Below, piece after piece: positions 17,709-31,349 of a stretch of 64,000 nt of DNA (positions within the stretch are counted from its first letter, which is position 1; the number at the start of each line of letters is the position of its first letter). Below the pieces are notes generated by a model, which saw only the letters and a program-made list of their open reading frames with translations, was not told the origin of the DNA and searched no databases. Position numbers and translations under genes: made by a program. Source of the stretch: Acetobacterium malicum subsp. dehalogenans DSM 11527 (GTDB lineage Bacteria > Bacillota > Clostridia > Eubacteriales > Eubacteriaceae); assembly GCF_000472665.1 (NCBI RefSeq), contig NZ_AXAC01000022.1, positions 599-64,598 on the forward strand. The letters run 5' to 3'.

Positions 17709-18749
17709 ATGAATCCGTTTGTCAATGAATTCCCGGTATACGAAACCCTGGCCAATGGAAATGCCATTATCATAATCTATGATCTGTTTATCATGCTACT
17801 TTTTTTGTTTGAGCTTTTTTTATTTTACAATAAAGAGCGTATTATTGAGGAAGTAAAGCTGAATCAAACGAAAAAAATTAAGCCATTCCGGCGTTTTTTG
17901 GTAAAATTGATTGTCAATTACGAGTATCAGGGGATTTTAATGGTGACGGGCGTGTTGCTGGTTATTTCGCTGGTGGTGGTGTCCAGCCATCATCGGATCT
18001 TAGTTAGTGAGTTGTTCGGGATTTTAGGAAGTTTTGCCGTTTTCATTATCATCGTATTTCTGGTTCAGCATCTGTTTATGAAGATTGACCAGTTTCAGGA
18101 TATTGTGGTTTCGCGATTTGTCGATCTGATCTTCTATCTGGTCCTGGGTCATTACTTTGTGTTGTTTGCCAACTTTATTTCGCCGCCAAGCCTGCCACTG
18201 GGTCTGGTGGGACTTTCTTTTGCCTTGATCCTCTGTTTTTCAGTGATGATTCGGGCTATTGCCAATCCCAGTATCATCCGGAGTTCGGTTTCAAAAAGAC
18301 GAAAATATCATGAAACCGCCAGTATCTTAAAGGGAATGCTGGTGCTGGTTGTCAGCGAGATGAGCATTCTTTATCTGATGGTCTATAATTGTTTTAAGAT
18401 CGATCCGAATTTTTATGTAGCCAACTCAGACCGGGCCCTGGACGCCTTTGATATGCTCTATTATATGGTCATTTCCTTTGCCACCATCGGCTATGGGGAT
18501 ATTCACCCGGTCCGCTTTAATGGTATGATTTACGGCGAACTGGTGGCGATGGTGATCGGTTTGGCTAGTATGTTTAGTACTGCCTGCTTTGTCGGAGCGG
18601 TGGTGGCCGGGGCAGCCCAGATGAGCTGGAATCAGGGCCTGGAAGCAAAAGATCAGAACCAGGATGATTCTTCCGACCGGAATCAGCACAATGAGCGGAA
18701 AAGCATGATTACCGTGGTCCGGGAAAAATTAAAAAACAAAGAGCTGTAA
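17709..18749 (+). CDS. Potassium channel protein with two-helix pore
   Basis: This 346-residue membrane protein has about six hydrophobic segments. The C-terminal pair flanks a pore loop with the selectivity filter TIGYGD (near residue 258). No RCK/TrkA domain follows; the protein ends in a short polar tail. The N-terminal segments lack a clear Arg-rich voltage sensor. It may be a simple ligand-independent K+ channel of the Kv-like topology. AAAGGAG precedes the ATG. Its place before the Mur-ligase-like pair is not explained by function. Confidence 0.88.
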   Translation: MNPFVNEFPVYETLANGNAIIIIYDLFIMLLFLFELFLFYNKERIIEEVKLNQTKKIKPFRRFLVKLIVNYEYQGILMVTGVLLVISLVVVSSHHRILVSELFGILGSFAVFIIIVFLVQHLFMKIDQFQDIVVSRFVDLIFYLVLGHYFVLFANFISPPSLPLGLVGLSFALILCFSVMIRAIANPSIIRSSVSKRRKYHETASILKGMLVLVVSEMSILYLMVYNCFKIDPNFYVANSDRALDAFDMLYYMVISFATIGYGDIHPVRFNGMIYGELVAMVIGLASMFSTACFVGAVVAGAAQMSWNQGLEAKDQNQDDSSDRNQHNERKSMITVVREKLKNKEL

Positions 18750-18781: not shown

Positions 18782-20134
18782 ATGAAATTTTATCTTGCAT
18801 TATGGTTTGCAAAATTAATGGGGATTGCCATTAAACTTGTCAGCAAGGGTCGGGGAACCAACCTTCCGGGTGAAAAGGCGTTGACAATCGACCCTGATTT
18901 TGTAAAACATTTTAAAAATATTGACTATTCAAAGGTTATTTTCATTACCGGAACCAATGGGAAATCCTCGACGACCAACCTGATCACCCATATTTTAAAA
19001 GAAAATGGAAAAAAGATTGTCTCGAATCTGGAGGGCGCCAATTTATTGGGCGGAATTGCCACGGTTCTGGCTAAAGAAGCCAGCTTATCGGGAAAACTCA
19101 AGGCGGACTACTATGTTTTTGAAACCGATGAGCGCTATCTGCCCTTGATTTATGCCCAATTGCCGGCCGAAAACATGCTGATCACCAATCTGCAAAAAGA
19201 TCAGGTCCAGAGAAATGGGGATCCGGATTTTATTATCCGTAAATTAAAAGAGGTTGTGAATCCCAGGATGACACTGATCCTCAATAACGAAGAACCGCGA
19301 TCCCGATTTTTTGAGGAAATCGCCCGTCGCTCCATATATTATGGGGTTTCCCGTCACGATGAATCATTCAACAAAGGTGCCGATTATCCAACCCAGGCCT
19401 GCCCGAAATGCCATCATGACATGAGCTTTGACTATTACAATGTCGACAGCATCGGTGCTTTTCATTGTGACTTTTGTGGTTTCGCCAGTAAAAGCACACC
19501 AGACTATGAGGTCACTGATCTGAATTTTGTTGAGAAAAGCTTTAAGCTGAAGAATGTGGTCTTCCATATGCCCTATGATCTGCCCTTTATGTTTTATAAC
19601 TATGCCGGCGCACTGGCAGTATGTGAAGAAATATGCGGGATTACGCCAGCGGCGGCGACCAAGTCTTTTGAAAATTTCAAGAACATCGGCGGTCGCTTTG
19701 AGATCTTGACCTATAAGAATAAAACTATTAAATACATGCGGATTAAGCAGGAAAATCCCGATACCCTTCAGAGTGCTTTAAATATCATGGCTTCTGACCC
19801 GAGTGAAAAAATGGTGGCGTTGGGTTTGTATGTGGTCAATGACTTCGTACCCCATTACATCAACACTTTCTATGCCTTTGACTGTGATTTCAAACCAGTG
19901 GTTGAATCAAATGTGGAGCGATATCTGTGTTTCTCTGAGCATGTTTCCTACGATACCGCCAATCGGTTGATCTATGATGGGGTTGCTAAAGAAGCGATCA
20001 CGATTATGGACAGTGACGACATTAATGAAATATTTGCCGAAATTGACAAGGCCGAAACCGATAATATTTATTTGATTACCTGGATTTCCACCTTTGAAAA
20101 GATGAAAAAATTCATTGAAGGAGGACAAAATTAA
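18782..20134 (+). CDS. MurT-like Mur ligase with zinc ribbon (divergent)
   Basis: This 450-residue protein has the MurT layout: a membrane-near N-terminal helix, the Mur ligase P-loop GTNGKSSTTN (about 57-66), a Cys4 ribbon inserted in the central domain (CPKC near 207 and CDFC near 233), and a C-terminal domain (DUF1727). In Gram-positive bacteria MurT with GatD amidates D-Glu of lipid II to D-isoGln. Two regions depart from the canonical form: the KNPAGFN block reads KQENPDT, and the Asp that contacts the GatD site in the usual DVSWIWD block appears as Asn in YINTFYAFD. Its last base is the first base of the GatD-like gene. ATP-dependent ligase activity is likely; the acceptor is uncertain. 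Confidence 0.85.
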   Translation: MKFYLALWFAKLMGIAIKLVSKGRGTNLPGEKALTIDPDFVKHFKNIDYSKVIFITGTNGKSSTTNLITHILKENGKKIVSNLEGANLLGGIATVLAKEASLSGKLKADYYVFETDERYLPLIYAQLPAENMLITNLQKDQVQRNGDPDFIIRKLKEVVNPRMTLILNNEEPRSRFFEEIARRSIYYGVSRHDESFNKGADYPTQACPKCHHDMSFDYYNVDSIGAFHCDFCGFASKSTPDYEVTDLNFVEKSFKLKNVVFHMPYDLPFMFYNYAGALAVCEEICGITPAAATKSFENFKNIGGRFEILTYKNKTIKYMRIKQENPDTLQSALNIMASDPSEKMVALGLYVVNDFVPHYINTFYAFDCDFKPVVESNVERYLCFSEHVSYDTANRLIYDGVAKEAITIMDSDDINEIFAEIDKAETDNIYLITWISTFEKMKKFIEGGQN

Positions 20135-20898
20135 TGGAACAGACCATAAAAGTCGGTTGGCTTTTTAATAATATGTTTAACCTTCATGGTGACCGGGGCA
20201 ATCTGCTGGCCATCCGGGCCGAAGGGGAACGCCGGGGCTACCGGGTTGAGGTCGAACAGATTAACCTGGAGACAGTGGTCTTTAACCCGATGGACTTTGA
20301 CTTTCTGTTTTGCCCACCGGGAGAAATTGAGCATTTTGAGGCGGTGGCAGCTTATCTGGAACCGCACCGCAAAGAACTGATGGACTATATCGAAACCCGG
20401 CCGATGCTGGTGACTGGAACGACAGTTGGTCTCTTCGGCGAAACAATCAGCCGGGATGATCAGTCCGCGATCCGAGGGCTGGGCATTATCGAGATTGAAG
20501 CCCGGGAAAATCACGCCGTTTATGGCGACGATCTTTATTACAGTTGTCAATACAATGGCAAGGAAATGGAAATTATTGGCAGCCAAATTCAGATGATCGA
20601 CCTGGATATCAAGGAAGAATCACCATTTGGCCGTTTGAAATATGGTTATGGCAATAACGGTGCAACCAAATTCGAAGGCGTTATCAGCGGCAAAGGTATT
20701 TTTACCAATACCCTGGGTCCGGTGCTGGTTTGTAACCCCTGGCTCACTGAAGAAATCATCAATTTAATTGAAGTCAATAAGAATTGGCCGATCTGGGAAG
20801 ACCATCGTGATAATTCACTGGAACAGGCATCATTAAAAACTAAGATTGTTCACATTGATAAAAAAGAAACCCGGTTGAAAGACATCGCAGTACGCTAG
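20134..20898 (+). CDS. GatD-like glutamine amidotransferase homologue lacking the Cys/His site
   Basis: This 254-residue protein is a class I amidotransferase-like partner of the MurT-like protein. Family blocks are seen at NLHGDRGN (16-23), GLGIIE (115-120), KYGYGNNG (169-176) and LGPVLVCNP (194-202). The nucleophile elbow, ICGGYQ in active GatD, reads TGTTVG here (residues 94-99), so the Cys position is Gly95. The usual YLHGP block reads NTLGP, so the His position is Leu194, and the FENHGG block is also absent. It should not hydrolyse glutamine by the known mechanism. It overlaps the MurT-like gene by one base, so the pair is surely co-translated. Confidence 0.82.
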   Translation: MEQTIKVGWLFNNMFNLHGDRGNLLAIRAEGERRGYRVEVEQINLETVVFNPMDFDFLFCPPGEIEHFEAVAAYLEPHRKELMDYIETRPMLVTGTTVGLFGETISRDDQSAIRGLGIIEIEARENHAVYGDDLYYSCQYNGKEMEIIGSQIQMIDLDIKEESPFGRLKYGYGNNGATKFEGVISGKGIFTNTLGPVLVCNPWLTEEIINLIEVNKNWPIWEDHRDNSLEQASLKTKIVHIDKKETRLKDIAVR

Positions 20899-23696: not shown

Positions 23697-23782
23697 AACC
23701 CAGCTAGAACAGTTTAGCTAGATTATTACAGCATGTATTTGGGTAAAAAAAGACCATGGACCAAAACCAAAGACAGCAAAGA

Positions 23783-23925
23783 AGCGCCAGAACTCAAGTG
23801 ATGGTCCACACAATAATTGAGTTGACGAGGTCAGGGAGTATCGAAAATTCGGCGGATGCCCTGGAGAACTGCTATGTAAAACTGAAGAGTGATTTTCAGG
23901 ACAAAGATGGCATAAATAAAGAAAA
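23783..23925 (+). ncRNA. glmS ribozyme-riboswitch
   Basis: The sequence right before glmS carries the conserved core of the glmS ribozyme: AGCGCCAGAACTC with the cleavage site expected between A23783 and G23784, the complementary TTGAGTTGACGAGG, then CAGGGAGTATCGA pairing through GGCGGATGCCCTG as the P3 arm, and a following P4-type hairpin. Glucosamine-6-phosphate acts as the cofactor for self-cleavage, which leads to decay of the glmS mRNA. An open frame of 65 codons over this stretch is only a by-product of the RNA. Confidence 0.93.
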
Positions 23926-27551: not shown

Positions 27552-27682
27552 TCGAGTAGTCACAATCTGCTGATATGCTGTATTTACGAATCGCAAAAAT
27601 GCCGTTAGAATGAAAGTATGTAAATGATTAAATCATAAAAATACGTAAATTTAAGAGAAAATTGATTAAGGAGGTCTGATTG

Positions 27683-28663
27683 ATGTTAACAGCAAGGCAG
27701 AATTTAGTGGAGACTATTAAAGGCGGAAAACCGGAACGTTTTGTCAAACAGTTCGAGTTTATGGAATTTATTATGGAAGCACCTGTGGAGTTGGCGATGG
27801 CACCGCCGGGAACAACAGCCAAAAACGGGTGGGGGATAACATTCAGCTGGCCAGAAGGACAGCTTGGCGCTTTTCCAGTTCATGATCAGGAACATCTGGT
27901 TTTAAAAGAAATAACCGACTGGAAAAAATACGTCACCGCACCTTCGGTTATTTACCCTGAGGATCGTTGGGCGGCAGCTGTCGAGCATGCCAAGGCTGTC
28001 GACCGGACAGAAAAATTTGTTGCCGCTTTTTTCGCCCCGGGTGTCTTTGAGCTGACCCACCATCTGATGACGATGGAGGAAGCGCTGATGGCCCTTTATG
28101 AAGAACCTGAAGCCATGCATGAGCTGATTGATTACATTACCGATTATGAATTGGCCTACGCCAAAGAACTGATCGCCCACATTCATCCCGATGCGCTTTT
28201 CCATCATGACGATTGGGGCAGCCAGATATCAACCTTCATCGCTCCATCCATGTTTGAAGAATTTCTTTTGCCAGCATACAAAAAGATTTATGGCTTTTAT
28301 AAAGATAATGGGGTTGAGCTGATTGTTCATCACAGTGACAGCTATGCCGCTACGCTGGTACCATACATGATTGAGATGGGCATTGATATCTGGCAGGGGG
28401 CCATGAACACCAACAATCTACCCGAACTGATCCAGAAATATGGTCAGGACATTACGTTTATGGGTGGCATTCACAGCGGTGTTGTCGATCGGCCGGGCTG
28501 GACTAAAGAGGAAATCTATCAGGAAACAAAAAAAGTCTGTGAACAATGCGGTAAGCTGGCTTTTATTCCCAATCTGACCCAGGGCATGCATATGAGTTCC
28601 TTCCCCGGTGTTTATGAAACCACCGATGAAGTCATTGATCAGCTTAGCAGAGAAATGTTTTAA
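27683..28663 (+). CDS. UroD-family methyltransferase, paralogue 1 (no Cys zinc motif)
   Basis: This 326-residue TIM-barrel protein belongs to the uroporphyrinogen decarboxylase/MtaA/O-demethylase MT I superfamily. It carries the block HDDWGSQ (175-181) also found in the next gene. Where MtaA and relatives have a HxC zinc pair, this protein reads HHSDS (216-220) and has no matching C-terminal Cys. In corrinoid operons such proteins demethylate the substrate and pass the methyl group to the corrinoid protein. A methoxyaromatic or other ether substrate is likely but not provable here. ATG at 27683 is chosen because AAGGAGG is eight bases upstream. Confidence 0.82.
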   Translation: MLTARQNLVETIKGGKPERFVKQFEFMEFIMEAPVELAMAPPGTTAKNGWGITFSWPEGQLGAFPVHDQEHLVLKEITDWKKYVTAPSVIYPEDRWAAAVEHAKAVDRTEKFVAAFFAPGVFELTHHLMTMEEALMALYEEPEAMHELIDYITDYELAYAKELIAHIHPDALFHHDDWGSQISTFIAPSMFEEFLLPAYKKIYGFYKDNGVELIVHHSDSYAATLVPYMIEMGIDIWQGAMNTNNLPELIQKYGQDITFMGGIHSGVVDRPGWTKEEIYQETKKVCEQCGKLAFIPNLTQGMHMSSFPGVYETTDEVIDQLSREMF

Positions 28664-28712
28664 AAAAGGCGGTCTGCTGGCGAAATTGCAAGAATAAGAA
28701 AGTGAGAACTAA

Positions 28713-29819
28713 ATGAGAAAAAAATTTGATCCCGAAGAAATGAAAGCAGTCGGAAATTATCCCGATTATCCGACCCATTTTATGGTCGGTTTGCCACCGC
28801 TGCCCCCCCACGCCAAGTGGAATAAACCGATTACGCCAAAAGAAAACTGGCGGCTCCTGTATGAGGGGAAGAAGCCCTACTGGATTCCCGAAGCGGGCTG
28901 GTTTAATTGTGATGTACTGATTTTTCGACCGCGAATGCATCCTGATAATGCCGCCACCCACCTGGTTTTTGATCAGGAAGCGCAGATGAGCTACGACAGT
29001 GATGTCCAAAAAGGCTGGTTTGACCTTGATTGGGAATGGGTTGAAATCGCTGGTGGTGCTTCTGTTCACCCGGGCAACCCGGCCGTTACCGACATTAACT
29101 GTTGGGAAGAACAGGTTCCTTTTCCCAATCTTGATGACCTTGACTGGGAGGCCGGTATTGCGGCCAATAAAGAGTACATAAAAACCGAAAAAATGCTTCA
29201 GGCTGGCATGCTTTCCGGCTTTTGGGAACGGCTGATGTCATTGATGGATGTCGACAAGGCGGCAATGGCCATGATTGATGAGGATCAGCAGAATGGTGTT
29301 CATCGTTTGTTTGATCGTCTGGCAGATCTATATGTCGATTACGTTGACCGCTTGCATCAGCACTTTAACATTGACAGCTTCCTGATCCATGATGACTGGG
29401 GAACCCAAATGAATCCTTTCTTTTCCTTGGATACCTGTCGGGAAATGATTGTCCCGTATCTGAAACGAGTCACCGACGCCTGTCATGAACGGGGAATTTT
29501 GTTTGAGCTTCACAGCTGTGGCAAGGGCGAAAAACTTGTCCCGGCGATGATTGAGGCGGGGGTTGACCTGTGGTGCCCGCAGATTATGAACAATTATGAA
29601 GAACTTGCCCATACATACAAGGACACTCGGATCATTTTTGGTTTGACGATTTTACCGCCGCCAACAGATTCAGAAGAAGAAATACGGAAACTGGCAAAAG
29701 ACTTTGTTGAAACCTACAAAGATTGTCGCGTAGCTCTGTGTGACATGGGGGCCGGGCCAGTTTATACTGCCGCCATCTATGAATACAGTCGCAAGGCATA
29801 CGAAAATTACCAGGATTAA
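28713..29819 (+). CDS. UroD-family methyltransferase, paralogue 2 (HxC zinc motif)
   Basis: This 368-residue protein is a longer member of the same superfamily as its upstream neighbour, with an extra 40-residue N-terminal segment. It has HDDWGTQ (226-232), the zinc-type pair HSC (267-269) and a later Cys in CDMGAG (343), which together give the His-Cys-Cys ligand set of MtaA/CmuA-type methyltransferases. It may be the substrate-specific methyltransferase or act with paralogue 1 as a pair. It lies 49 bases after that gene, with a weak GTGAGAAC site. Confidence 0.82.
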   Translation: MRKKFDPEEMKAVGNYPDYPTHFMVGLPPLPPHAKWNKPITPKENWRLLYEGKKPYWIPEAGWFNCDVLIFRPRMHPDNAATHLVFDQEAQMSYDSDVQKGWFDLDWEWVEIAGGASVHPGNPAVTDINCWEEQVPFPNLDDLDWEAGIAANKEYIKTEKMLQAGMLSGFWERLMSLMDVDKAAMAMIDEDQQNGVHRLFDRLADLYVDYVDRLHQHFNIDSFLIHDDWGTQMNPFFSLDTCREMIVPYLKRVTDACHERGILFELHSCGKGEKLVPAMIEAGVDLWCPQIMNNYEELAHTYKDTRIIFGLTILPPPTDSEEEIRKLAKDFVETYKDCRVALCDMGAGPVYTAAIYEYSRKAYENYQD

Positions 29820-29864
29820 TAGGTCACAGACCAAGAATTGATTTTTAGAAAAAAGGGAGAAACA

Positions 29865-30662
29865 ATGATTATTATTGGCGAAAAAATTAACGGTGCCATT
29901 CCCTCAACCGGGAAGGCGATTGCTGAGAAGGATGCCGAATTTATCCGGAACCTGGCCATCAAACAGGCCGAAGCCGGAGCTGATTTTATCGATGTCTGTG
30001 CCTCAGTGGACGACGACATCGAACTGGAAACGATGAAATGGCTGATCGACATTGTTCAGGAAGCTACCGATATACCGATTGCGGTGGACAGTCCCAATGT
30101 TTATACCTGTATTGAATCGATGAAATACTGCAATAAACCGGGACTATTTAATTCAGTGTCGCTGGAAGGTGATAAGGTCGATGTGGCCTTCAAAGTTCTG
30201 GCCGAGACCAAATGGGAATGTGTGGCTTTATTAAACAGCGACAAGGGCATCCCGAAAACCGCTAAAGACCGATTGGACGTGTTTACTGATCTAATGGCAA
30301 AATGTAAAGAATACAAGATCGATCCCTCCCGCATGCATATTGATCCCTTGATTGAAATGCTGTGTACCTCCGAAGACGGCATCACCATGGTGACCGAAGT
30401 GATCCGGGAAATCAAAAAACAATATCCCACCATTCATGTCACCGGCGCCGTCAGCAACATTTCCTTCAACCTGCCCGCCCGCCGGATTGCCAACCAGGCT
30501 TTTGCCGTTTTAGCCATGAGCGCTGGGATGGACAGTTTTATCCTCGATCCGCTGAATAAGGATATGATGGGAATGCTCTTTGCCACCGAAGCGATGATGG
30601 GCGAAGATGAATACTGTATGGAATACATCAGTGCTTTCCGGGAAGGTATTTTTGTTAAATAG
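29865..30662 (+). CDS. Methyltetrahydrofolate:corrinoid methyltransferase (MT II)
   Basis: This 265-residue protein has the pterin-binding TIM barrel of AcsE/MtvA/MtrH-like enzymes. It starts with IIIGEKINGAIP, and the folate-site residues of AcsE can be matched: Asp in AVDSPN, Asn in LFNSVS, Asp in HIDPLIE and Asn in AVSNISF. It should move the methyl group from the corrinoid protein to tetrahydrofolate. ATG at 29865 with AGGGAGAAA is preferred over a TTG nine codons earlier. Neighbours on both sides are the other parts of the system. Confidence 0.9.
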   Translation: MIIIGEKINGAIPSTGKAIAEKDAEFIRNLAIKQAEAGADFIDVCASVDDDIELETMKWLIDIVQEATDIPIAVDSPNVYTCIESMKYCNKPGLFNSVSLEGDKVDVAFKVLAETKWECVALLNSDKGIPKTAKDRLDVFTDLMAKCKEYKIDPSRMHIDPLIEMLCTSEDGITMVTEVIREIKKQYPTIHVTGAVSNISFNLPARRIANQAFAVLAMSAGMDSFILDPLNKDMMGMLFATEAMMGEDEYCMEYISAFREGIFVK

Positions 30663-30719
30663 TTAAATCCTCCGATGCACACAGATTGAGGAAAATAAAT
30701 AAAATTCAAGGAGAAAAAA

Positions 30720-31349
30720 ATGTCAAAAATTGAAGAAGTAAAAGTATTGGTGGAAACTGGTAAATCAAAGAAGGTTGCTGCAGCGGTTCATGAAGCTCTG
30801 GATGCCGGCGATAAAGCCCAGGATATACTCGATGCAATGATCGCATCCATGGGTGTGGTGGGGGATAAATTCTCATCCGGTGAAATTTTTGTACCGGAAA
30901 TGTTAATCGCTGCCAAAGCGATGGCTAAAGGAGTGGAAGTATTAAAACCAATTATGGCTGGTGATGTGTCAAATTCATTGGGCACCTGTATTATGGGAAC
31001 CGTCGCCGGCGACCTTCACGATATCGGCAAAAACCTGGTTATCATGATGCTTGAGAGTTCAGGCTTTGACATGGTTGACCTGGGGGTTGACGTGCCAGCT
31101 GAAAAATTTGTGGAAGCCATTAAGGAAAACAACAATGTTGTTCTGGTAGCCTGTTCGGGTCTGTTGACTACCACTATGCCAGCCTTAAAAGAAGCGGTTC
31201 AAACCATTAAAGCGGCTTATCCAGATATGAAAGTGATTGTTGGTGGCGCTCCGGTTACCCAGGAATATGCTGATGAAATTGGCGCCGATGGCTATGCACC
31301 AGATGCCGGCAGCTCGGCGGCTAAAGCCAAGGAACTGATCGGGGCCTAA
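30720..31349 (+). CDS. Corrinoid methyl-carrier protein
   Basis: This 209-residue protein has an N-terminal four-helix cap (about 1-85) and a B12-binding Rossmann domain with the base-off motif DLHDIG (98-103; DxHxxG), followed by the SGLLTT and GGAPVT blocks that hold the lower-ligand tail. It receives methyl groups from the UroD-family protein and donates them to MT II. AAGGAGAA precedes the ATG. A reductive activator (RACo type), needed to rescue the Co(II) form, is not in the window. Confidence 0.95.
   Translation: MSKIEEVKVLVETGKSKKVAAAVHEALDAGDKAQDILDAMIASMGVVGDKFSSGEIFVPEMLIAAKAMAKGVEVLKPIMAGDVSNSLGTCIMGTVAGDLHDIGKNLVIMMLESSGFDMVDLGVDVPAEKFVEAIKENNNVVLVACSGLLTTTMPALKEAVQTIKAAYPDMKVIVGGAPVTQEYADEIGADGYAPDAGSSAAKAKELIGA

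Follow-up and report, generated by a model that had tools for sequence, protein, structure and literature searches.

A 64,000-nucleotide stretch of the 4.05 Mb genome of Acetobacterium malicum subsp. dehalogenans DSM 11527 (the window) contains two adjacent genes that resemble those for MurT and GatD, the subunits of lipid II isoglutaminyl synthase. The first gene (18782..20134; all features described here are on the + strand) encodes a MurT-like Mur ligase subunit of 450 amino acids. The second (20134..20898) encodes a GatD-like subunit of 254 amino acids that lacks the glutaminase site. The two open reading frames have one base in common. A sequence-only reading of this DNA had claimed that the pair keeps the gene order, the one-base overlap and the fold marks of MurT-GatD. 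The open reading frames, the Pfam matches and the fold matches of AlphaFold2 models bear this out.

The MurT-like protein matches MurT_C (E = 2.2e-16) and Mur_ligase_M (E = 3.7e-9) in Pfam and contains GTNGK[ST], so it belongs to the Mur ligase superfamily. No Pfam family matched the GatD-like protein at E = 0.1. Both proteins miss the curated cut-offs of the NCBIfam models for lipid II isoglutaminyl synthase (NF045635/NF045636): the MurT-like protein scores 151 and 173 bits against MurT (cut-off 800), and the GatD-like protein scores 60 bits against GatD (cut-off 400). AlphaFold2 models of each chain alone are confident, with mean predicted local distance difference test (pLDDT) values of 94.2 and 88.5. 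Among solved structures, the GatD-like model is closest to S. aureus GatD (6h5e_A; Z = 31.4, root-mean-square deviation 1.9, 241 residues aligned), and the MurT-like model is closest to S. pyogenes MurT (9sqj; Z = 34.0, root-mean-square deviation 3.5, 386 residues aligned). Identity to the solved proteins is low (22-24%). The window's MurT-like protein shares 82% identity with that of Acetobacterium fimetarium.

We also considered whether the genome has a second, canonical MurT-GatD pair, and rejected this: the single MurT_C match in the genome is the copy in the window. (GATase_3 has four matches in the genome, all on other contigs than the pair.)

The missing glutaminase site

Pairwise alignments to solved proteins place Gly95 of the GatD-like protein (20416..20418) at the nucleophile of S. 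aureus GatD, Cys94, and Leu194 (20713..20715) at its catalytic residue, His189. In the MurT-like protein, Asn361 (19862..19864) corresponds to Asp349 of S. aureus MurT, the third residue of the triad. These are the assignments that had been made by eye, and the triad residues are gone from both partners, as had been noted. Two motifs that were said to be gone or altered are indeed changed: Gln151-Ile152 (20584..20589) stand in place of the canonical Glu-Asn of the (F)ENHGG block in the clade alignment, and KNPAG of canonical MurT reads KQENPDT. The alignments place no Cys or His in the active site. As for a substitute nucleophile or histidine elsewhere in the GatD-like protein, Cys60, Cys138, Cys200 and the other His residues lack conservation across the clade, the one exception being His18, which replaces a tyrosine; we rejected this idea.

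In S. aureus, glutamine-dependent amidation is reported to be abolished by GatD-C94G and abolished or severely reduced by MurT-D349N (PMC6113224, PMC3266927). Because the natural state of the window pair equals these inactivating changes, the pair can hardly draw ammonia from glutamine, as the sequence-only reading had concluded. Lipid II amidation by S. aureus GatD-C94G with MurT is reported to persist with free ammonia at pH 8.5 (PMC3266927). So, a complex with glycine in place of this cysteine would stay a working ligase for an external amine.

Conservation within the Cys-less class

We read relatives of the pair in 51 of the 61 genomes around the window (the window genome included), in the best 80 of 383 named loci, and in 30 loci from a phylum-wide draw. 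We count loci because some are the same place reached twice (L006 and L140, for example). Among 166 MurT-like proteins, 124 have a KQEN or KNG loop, 35 have the ordinary K-NP loop, and seven have another loop type. All 122 of the KQEN/KNG loci with a GatD lack the cysteine, and the catalytic histidine is absent in all 120 that are readable at that position (L045 and L061 are cut there). At the Asp349 position, the 124 KQEN/KNG proteins have Asn (117), Asp (two) or other residues (five). In the K-NP loci, Cys, His and Asp are all present (35/35), and the seven loci with another loop type have neither Cys nor His. Nine genomes behind named loci each have one MurT_C match, which is always Cys-less. 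(These include Eubacterium barkeri, Anaerofustis, E. minutum, Emergencia timonensis, and Aminicella.) Pairs without the glutaminase site form a conserved class; they are not a single gene in decay.

We then examined which residues are kept. In 43 aligned MurT-like proteins, Gly57, Asn59, Gly60 and Lys61 of the P-loop, Gly85, Asn87, Asp116, Glu117, and the four zinc-binding cysteines are invariant. The P-loop GTNGKS (residues 57-62; 18950..18967) is kept, with Ser for Thr at position 62, as are the acceptor-carboxylate loop Gly85-Ala86-Asn87 (19034..19042) and Asp116-Glu117 (19127..19132), the acids for Mg, ATP and the acceptor. In S. pneumoniae MurT, binding of the acceptor carboxylate and Mg is ascribed to the equivalent Asn and acids (PMC6085368). 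The Cys4 zinc ribbon (Cys207/210/229/232; 19400..19477) is present in 105 of 105 clade sequences.

The residues around the donor differ. Lys322-Gln323-Glu324-Asn325 (19745..19756) contains a two-residue insert in the K-N-P loop, which marks the class; in S. pneumoniae MurT this loop may contact the ribose of ATP (PMC6085368). Residues 138-148 of the MurT-like protein (19193..19225) are the counterpart of loop 135-143 of S. pneumoniae MurT, which may form the ammonia channel (PMC6085368). Here Q138, K139, V142, Q143, N145 and P148 are changes fixed in the clade, and Asp140 and Arg144, whose S. pneumoniae counterparts are described as important (PMC6085368), are kept. His18 of the GatD-like protein (20185..20187) lies at the position of Tyr30 of S. 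pneumoniae GatD, which blocks the entrance of the ammonia channel (PMC6085368); this residue is Tyr in all 35 canonical sequences.

To list such positions, we compared 103 and 105 clade sequences (16 near-copies were removed first) with the 35 canonical ones and required one residue in at least 85%. In GatD, the clade-fixed differences are His18, Glu64, Gly95, Gly131, Asp133, Gln151, Ile152, Leu194 and Ser233. In MurT, they are Ser62, Arg118, Ile123, Gln138, Lys139, Val142, Gln143, Asn145, Pro148, Ile151, Asn301, Arg320, the Gln323-Glu324 insert, Thr328, Gln330, Gly348, Asp354, Pro357, Tyr359, Asn361, Phe363, Tyr364, Cys368 and Phe384. The fixed changes map to the positions of the nucleophile, the histidine, the ENHGG block, the channel-gate tyrosine, the channel loop, and Asp349. 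The Cys-less clade has a conserved acceptor side and a new donor side.

We also compared the window pair to its relatives by the ratio of nonsynonymous to synonymous substitution rates (dN/dS). Four of 16 comparisons were saturated, and the other 12 gave values of 0.05-0.12, which indicates strong purifying selection. Together with the invariance of the residues above, this rejects decay into a pseudogene.

In Bacilli, MurT_C has a match in 40 of 296 genomes. The 30 loci that we read include 18 canonical pairs, 11 of another Cys-less type with a TGN loop, and one of the KQEN type. TGN-like Cys-less types are also seen in order-level relatives (L046-L051, L057); those in small Bacilli genomes are L209, L212, L213, L216, L217, L219, L222, L224, L227, L231 and L237. 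Some genomes have several different Cys-less pairs (two in G049 and in G038, three in G055). In metagenome-assembled genomes of Mogibacterium, two Cys-less pairs stand in tandem, and the second is of another sub-type (L131, 4977-9468; L137, 4995-9396).

In the class of the actinomycetes, MurT_C was found in 225 of 393 genomes. One of them (G459) has a KQEN-type pair. We read the loci of 42 others: the 30 with the best MurT_C matches, nine with very weak matches, and three with middling ones. The cysteine is absent from all nine weak matches and present in 32 of the other 33 (the GatD of the remaining one is cut). Four of the nine genomes with weak matches (G564, G553, G650 and G790) belong to one family, the Microbacteriaceae. 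(By 16S rRNA, G642 and G694 are at 97.6 and 96.7% to G564, and G821 is at 98.0% to G553.) Pfam's MurT_C is incomplete for Cys-less pairs, as two actinomycete genomes without a listed MurT_C match (G575 and G848) later gave GatD matches.

We surveyed 150 genomes of Microbacteriaceae with a profile of the Cys-less GatD (E = 1e-5). Among the 118 genomes with a match, 102 have Cys-less pairs only, 13 have canonical pairs only, and three have both, so 105 of the 118 have a Cys-less pair; by locus, 106 of 122 are Cys-less. The single GatD match in Rhodoluna lacicola (G1162), whose genome is 1.43 Mb, is Cys-less. So is the pair (L376) in a 0.93 Mb genome (G1167) that is probably Tropheryma whipplei, as judged by two diagnostic 16S stretches. 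Its retention in such a genome hints that the pair is needed. An upstream sigma-factor-like open reading frame clusters in 82 of the 122 Microbacteriaceae loci, which points to a stable place and gives no functional clue.

A tree of 122 chosen pairs was built with the trait columns removed (a quick search, with support from the Shimodaira-Hasegawa-like approximate likelihood ratio test, SH-aLRT, only; L248 and L376 are on long branches). The 28 main Cys-less pairs from Microbacteriaceae are set off by one branch (support 100) among the canonical pairs of actinomycetes, and 53 Cys-less pairs of the Bacillota type group separately (support 99). The state of the cysteine requires at least three changes on this tree. 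There are two main separate origins of Cys-less pairs, in Bacillota and in Microbacteriaceae. Two further Cys-less types from Microbacteriaceae nest inside the Bacillota-type clade. As each of these genomes has one GatD match, it looks as if one Cys-less pair had replaced another.

Two other observations concern the actinomycetes. In two genomes (loci L248 and L249), one of which lies outside Microbacteriaceae by 16S, Asp-Ala replaces the Cys motif of GatD. And a canonical plasmid-borne pair in Leifsonia shinshuensis (L270) adjoins a gene for a VanY-like M15 peptidase and is possibly part of an accessory wall cassette. Outside the actinomycetes, a plasmid of E. faecalis likewise carries a canonical pair with Cys and His.

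A candidate ligase for group B peptidoglycan

Group B cross-linking has been in the textbooks since the 1970s. Nevertheless, the literature listings that we searched (not whole papers) showed no enzyme for the first bond of its bridge, and in the library searched no paper joins MurT with Microbacterium or with "group B peptidoglycan."

Several lines of evidence link Cys-less pairs to this bridge. Cys-less pairs co-occur with group B walls where the wall type is known. R. lacicola, a member of Microbacteriaceae, has peptidoglycan of type B2beta by chemistry (PMC4156110), and a paper on Microbacterium ascribes group B-type peptidoglycan to representatives of Microbacteriaceae (PMC10978784). Eubacterium limosum ATCC 8486 (G022) has a Cys-less pair (L025), and the wall of the type strain is reported to contain Ala, Glu, Lys, Orn and Ser (PMC4791908); the two diamino acids are as a B2alpha bridge would give. 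A review's table lists B2alpha for Eubacterium, species unspecified, alongside three group A types (PMC11382707). The solved group A species (S. aureus and others) have canonical pairs.

In addition, some Cys-less pairs are next to a racemase gene. Among the KQEN/KNG loci with at least 500 bases downstream (n = 106), a racemase gene adjoins the pair in 13: it is directly 3' of gatD on the same strand in 12, and divergent before murT in one. There was no such neighbor in the 35 canonical loci, the seven loci of other loop types, or the 122 Microbacteriaceae loci. The nine racemases that we scanned all have NCBIfam's ornithine racemase Orr (NF040742) as their best match (E = 1e-85 to 1e-137). 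Two of the 13 loci are from metagenome-assembled genomes named as actinomycetes, so the pair and the racemase seem to move together as a cassette. The 13 loci are related, so they represent few independent events. Otherwise, the flanks of the named loci (the best 80 of 383) have little in common; clustering of these flanks gave as its top groups an ABC ATPase (nine loci), the racemase (eight), and a site-2-protease-like protein (eight).

Since the family tracks bacteria with the type B cross-link, we think that the pair is probably an ATP-dependent wall ligase that starts the bridge of group B peptidoglycan. The conservation of the class, the retained acceptor and ATP residues, the ammonia-dependent activity of S. 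aureus GatD-C94G, the separate loss of the cysteine in Microbacteriaceae, and the absence of a FemAB match in the window genome likewise speak for this. We infer the reaction, the donor and the step as follows. Like MurT, the MurT-like subunit would bind the membrane-bound precursor and activate the alpha-carboxyl of its second residue, D-Glu. The GatD-like partner would no longer produce ammonia; instead, the rebuilding of the former glutamine pocket, the channel gate and the channel loop may make room for a free amino acid. This donor would most likely be a D-diamino acid; plausible choices are D-ornithine or D-lysine for Acetobacterium and Eubacterium, and either glycine or a D-diamino acid for Microbacteriaceae. 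The amino group of the donor would attack the activated carboxyl of D-Glu. The product would be the first bond of a group B bridge, the kind of cross-link that starts at the D-Glu of position 2.

On balance, we also lean towards a broader form of this idea: that the ligases missing for the first bridge bond of group B are complexes of this kind, that they arose at least twice (in Bacillota and in Microbacteriaceae) as the glutaminase was disabled and the ammonia route became an amino-acid pocket, that their sub-types correspond to different bridge amino acids, and that one type has its own ornithine racemase. The breadth of the class and the links to group B walls and to ornithine racemase go beyond the sequence-only reading. 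That reading had offered three ways in which the complex might have been repurposed. Another source of nitrogen fits best. Another acceptor is not favored, because Asn87 and the acids at 116-117 are invariant in the 43 sequences, and neither is a purely structural or sensing role, because strong purifying selection maintains the site for ATP-dependent ligation.

Several observations weigh against a role in the group B bridge. At the level of species, the group B walls of Acetobacterium (A. woodii), E. barkeri and E. limosum are something that we presume; for Acetobacterium and E. limosum they were reportedly described by Kandler and Schoberth and by Schleifer and Kandler. Many carriers have no wall type known to us: Emergencia, Mogibacterium, Anaerofustis and others of the clade, the organisms of the 11 TGN-type loci among the 30 from Bacilli, and two actinomycetes with a fourth Cys-less form, G487, which is apart from Microbacteriaceae and falls with Streptomyces by 16S, and G523, in which a 16S search found none. 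Within Microbacteriaceae, the 13 genomes (of 118) with a canonical pair only do not fit, 32 of the 150 genomes had no match to the Cys-less GatD profile at E = 1e-5, and the L. shinshuensis plasmid carries a canonical pair with both Cys and His (5064-8013 of L270). The histidine is retained in 63 of the 106 Cys-less Microbacteriaceae loci, so the rebuilding differs there. Two of the KQEN loci (L115 and L133) match the canonical Asp349 with Asp instead of Asn, and in four others (L044, L121, L138 and L139) a His precedes the catalytic column by one or two residues. As for the racemases, all nine Orr matches are below the curated cut-off (the best has 457.7 of 480 bits), and Orr is not beside the pair at the window locus, in 93 of the 106 KQEN/KNG loci, or in the 122 Microbacteriaceae loci.

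We considered other explanations for the pair. It might still make isoglutamine, using free ammonium rather than glutamine. Anaerobes often live amid much ammonium. The reported activity of S. aureus GatD-C94G with MurT on free ammonia at pH 8.5 (PMC3266927) also speaks for this. But this would leave the fixed new residues on the donor side and the linkage to ornithine racemase unexplained. Nor would it account for the tie to group B walls, where the bridge is attached to that same carboxyl. We consider it unlikely that the pair is an ammonia-dependent amidase.

Alternatively, the pair might use the same ligase chemistry for a decoration, or on another carboxyl of the wall or envelope, instead of for the group B bridge. 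In type A2 walls, for example, glycine is attached to D-Glu. The many carriers without a known wall type and the existence of several Cys-less sub-types leave room for this. However, wall data are best for two lineages, both of group B, and the racemase neighbor points to a D-diamino acid. This too seems improbable to us.

A third idea is that the pair is a non-catalytic remnant: once group B walls had no more need of amidation, it would have been retained for a structural or sensing role. The loss of the glutaminase site from both partners would fit, but the P-loop, the Mg acids, the acceptor Asn and the zinc ribbon are invariant or nearly so, dN/dS is 0.05-0.12, and two genomes of just 0.93 and 1.43 Mb retain the pair. 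We view a remnant as very unlikely. Finally, although identity to solved MurT and GatD is just 22-24%, an alignment error or annotation artefact is hardly credible, as pairwise and multiple alignments agree, the fold matches cover 241 and 386 residues, and the Cys pattern separates 122 loci from 35 with no exception.

If the pair does form the first bond of the group B bridge, then a pair whose nearest named relative is isoglutaminyl synthase acts otherwise both in acetogens and across a large actinomycete family. Also, the wall type would be predictable from sequence. And an amidotransferase that turned into an amino-acid ligase would be a clean case of enzyme repurposing.

As for the surroundings of the pair, a membrane protein in which a GYGD ion-channel filter motif can be seen by eye is encoded at 17709-18749, directly 5' of the MurT-like gene. 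Farther downstream, there is an ordinary glmS ribozyme (23772-23924) that precedes a glmS gene, and a row of open reading frames (27680-31349) that by eye are uroporphyrinogen-decarboxylase-like, methyltransferase-like and corrinoid-protein-like.

Comparison with known systems

The closest known system is the MurT-GatD isoglutaminyl synthase of S. aureus, S. pneumoniae and S. pyogenes. The window pair shares its gene order, both folds, the P-loop, the Mg acids, the acceptor Asn, and the Cys4 ribbon. In contrast to these enzymes, the window pair lacks the Cys/His/Asp triad, has a two-residue insert in the K-N-P loop, and is altered in the ENHGG block, the channel gate and the channel loop. It also scores far below both curated NCBIfam cut-offs.

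In its proposed chemistry, the pair would resemble MurC-MurF and the peptide ligases of pseudomurein, which couple an amino acid to a carboxyl that has been activated. They are also similar in fold (Z of about 20-26) and in the ATP site. However, those ligases are single chains, whereas the window pair keeps a GatD-like partner and MurT_C.

In group A walls, a comparable first bridge step is carried out by transferases of the FemX/MurM type. These are tRNA-dependent and act on the side chain at position 3. Their fold is unrelated, and a search of the window genome for the FemAB family (PF02388) found no match.

Finally, the archaeal MurT-like proteins of pseudomurein makers are, like the window pair, relatives of MurT without a working GatD partner. 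The difference is that archaea with a MurT-like protein only are described as having no GatD homolog (PMC11915815), whereas the window pair keeps its partner.

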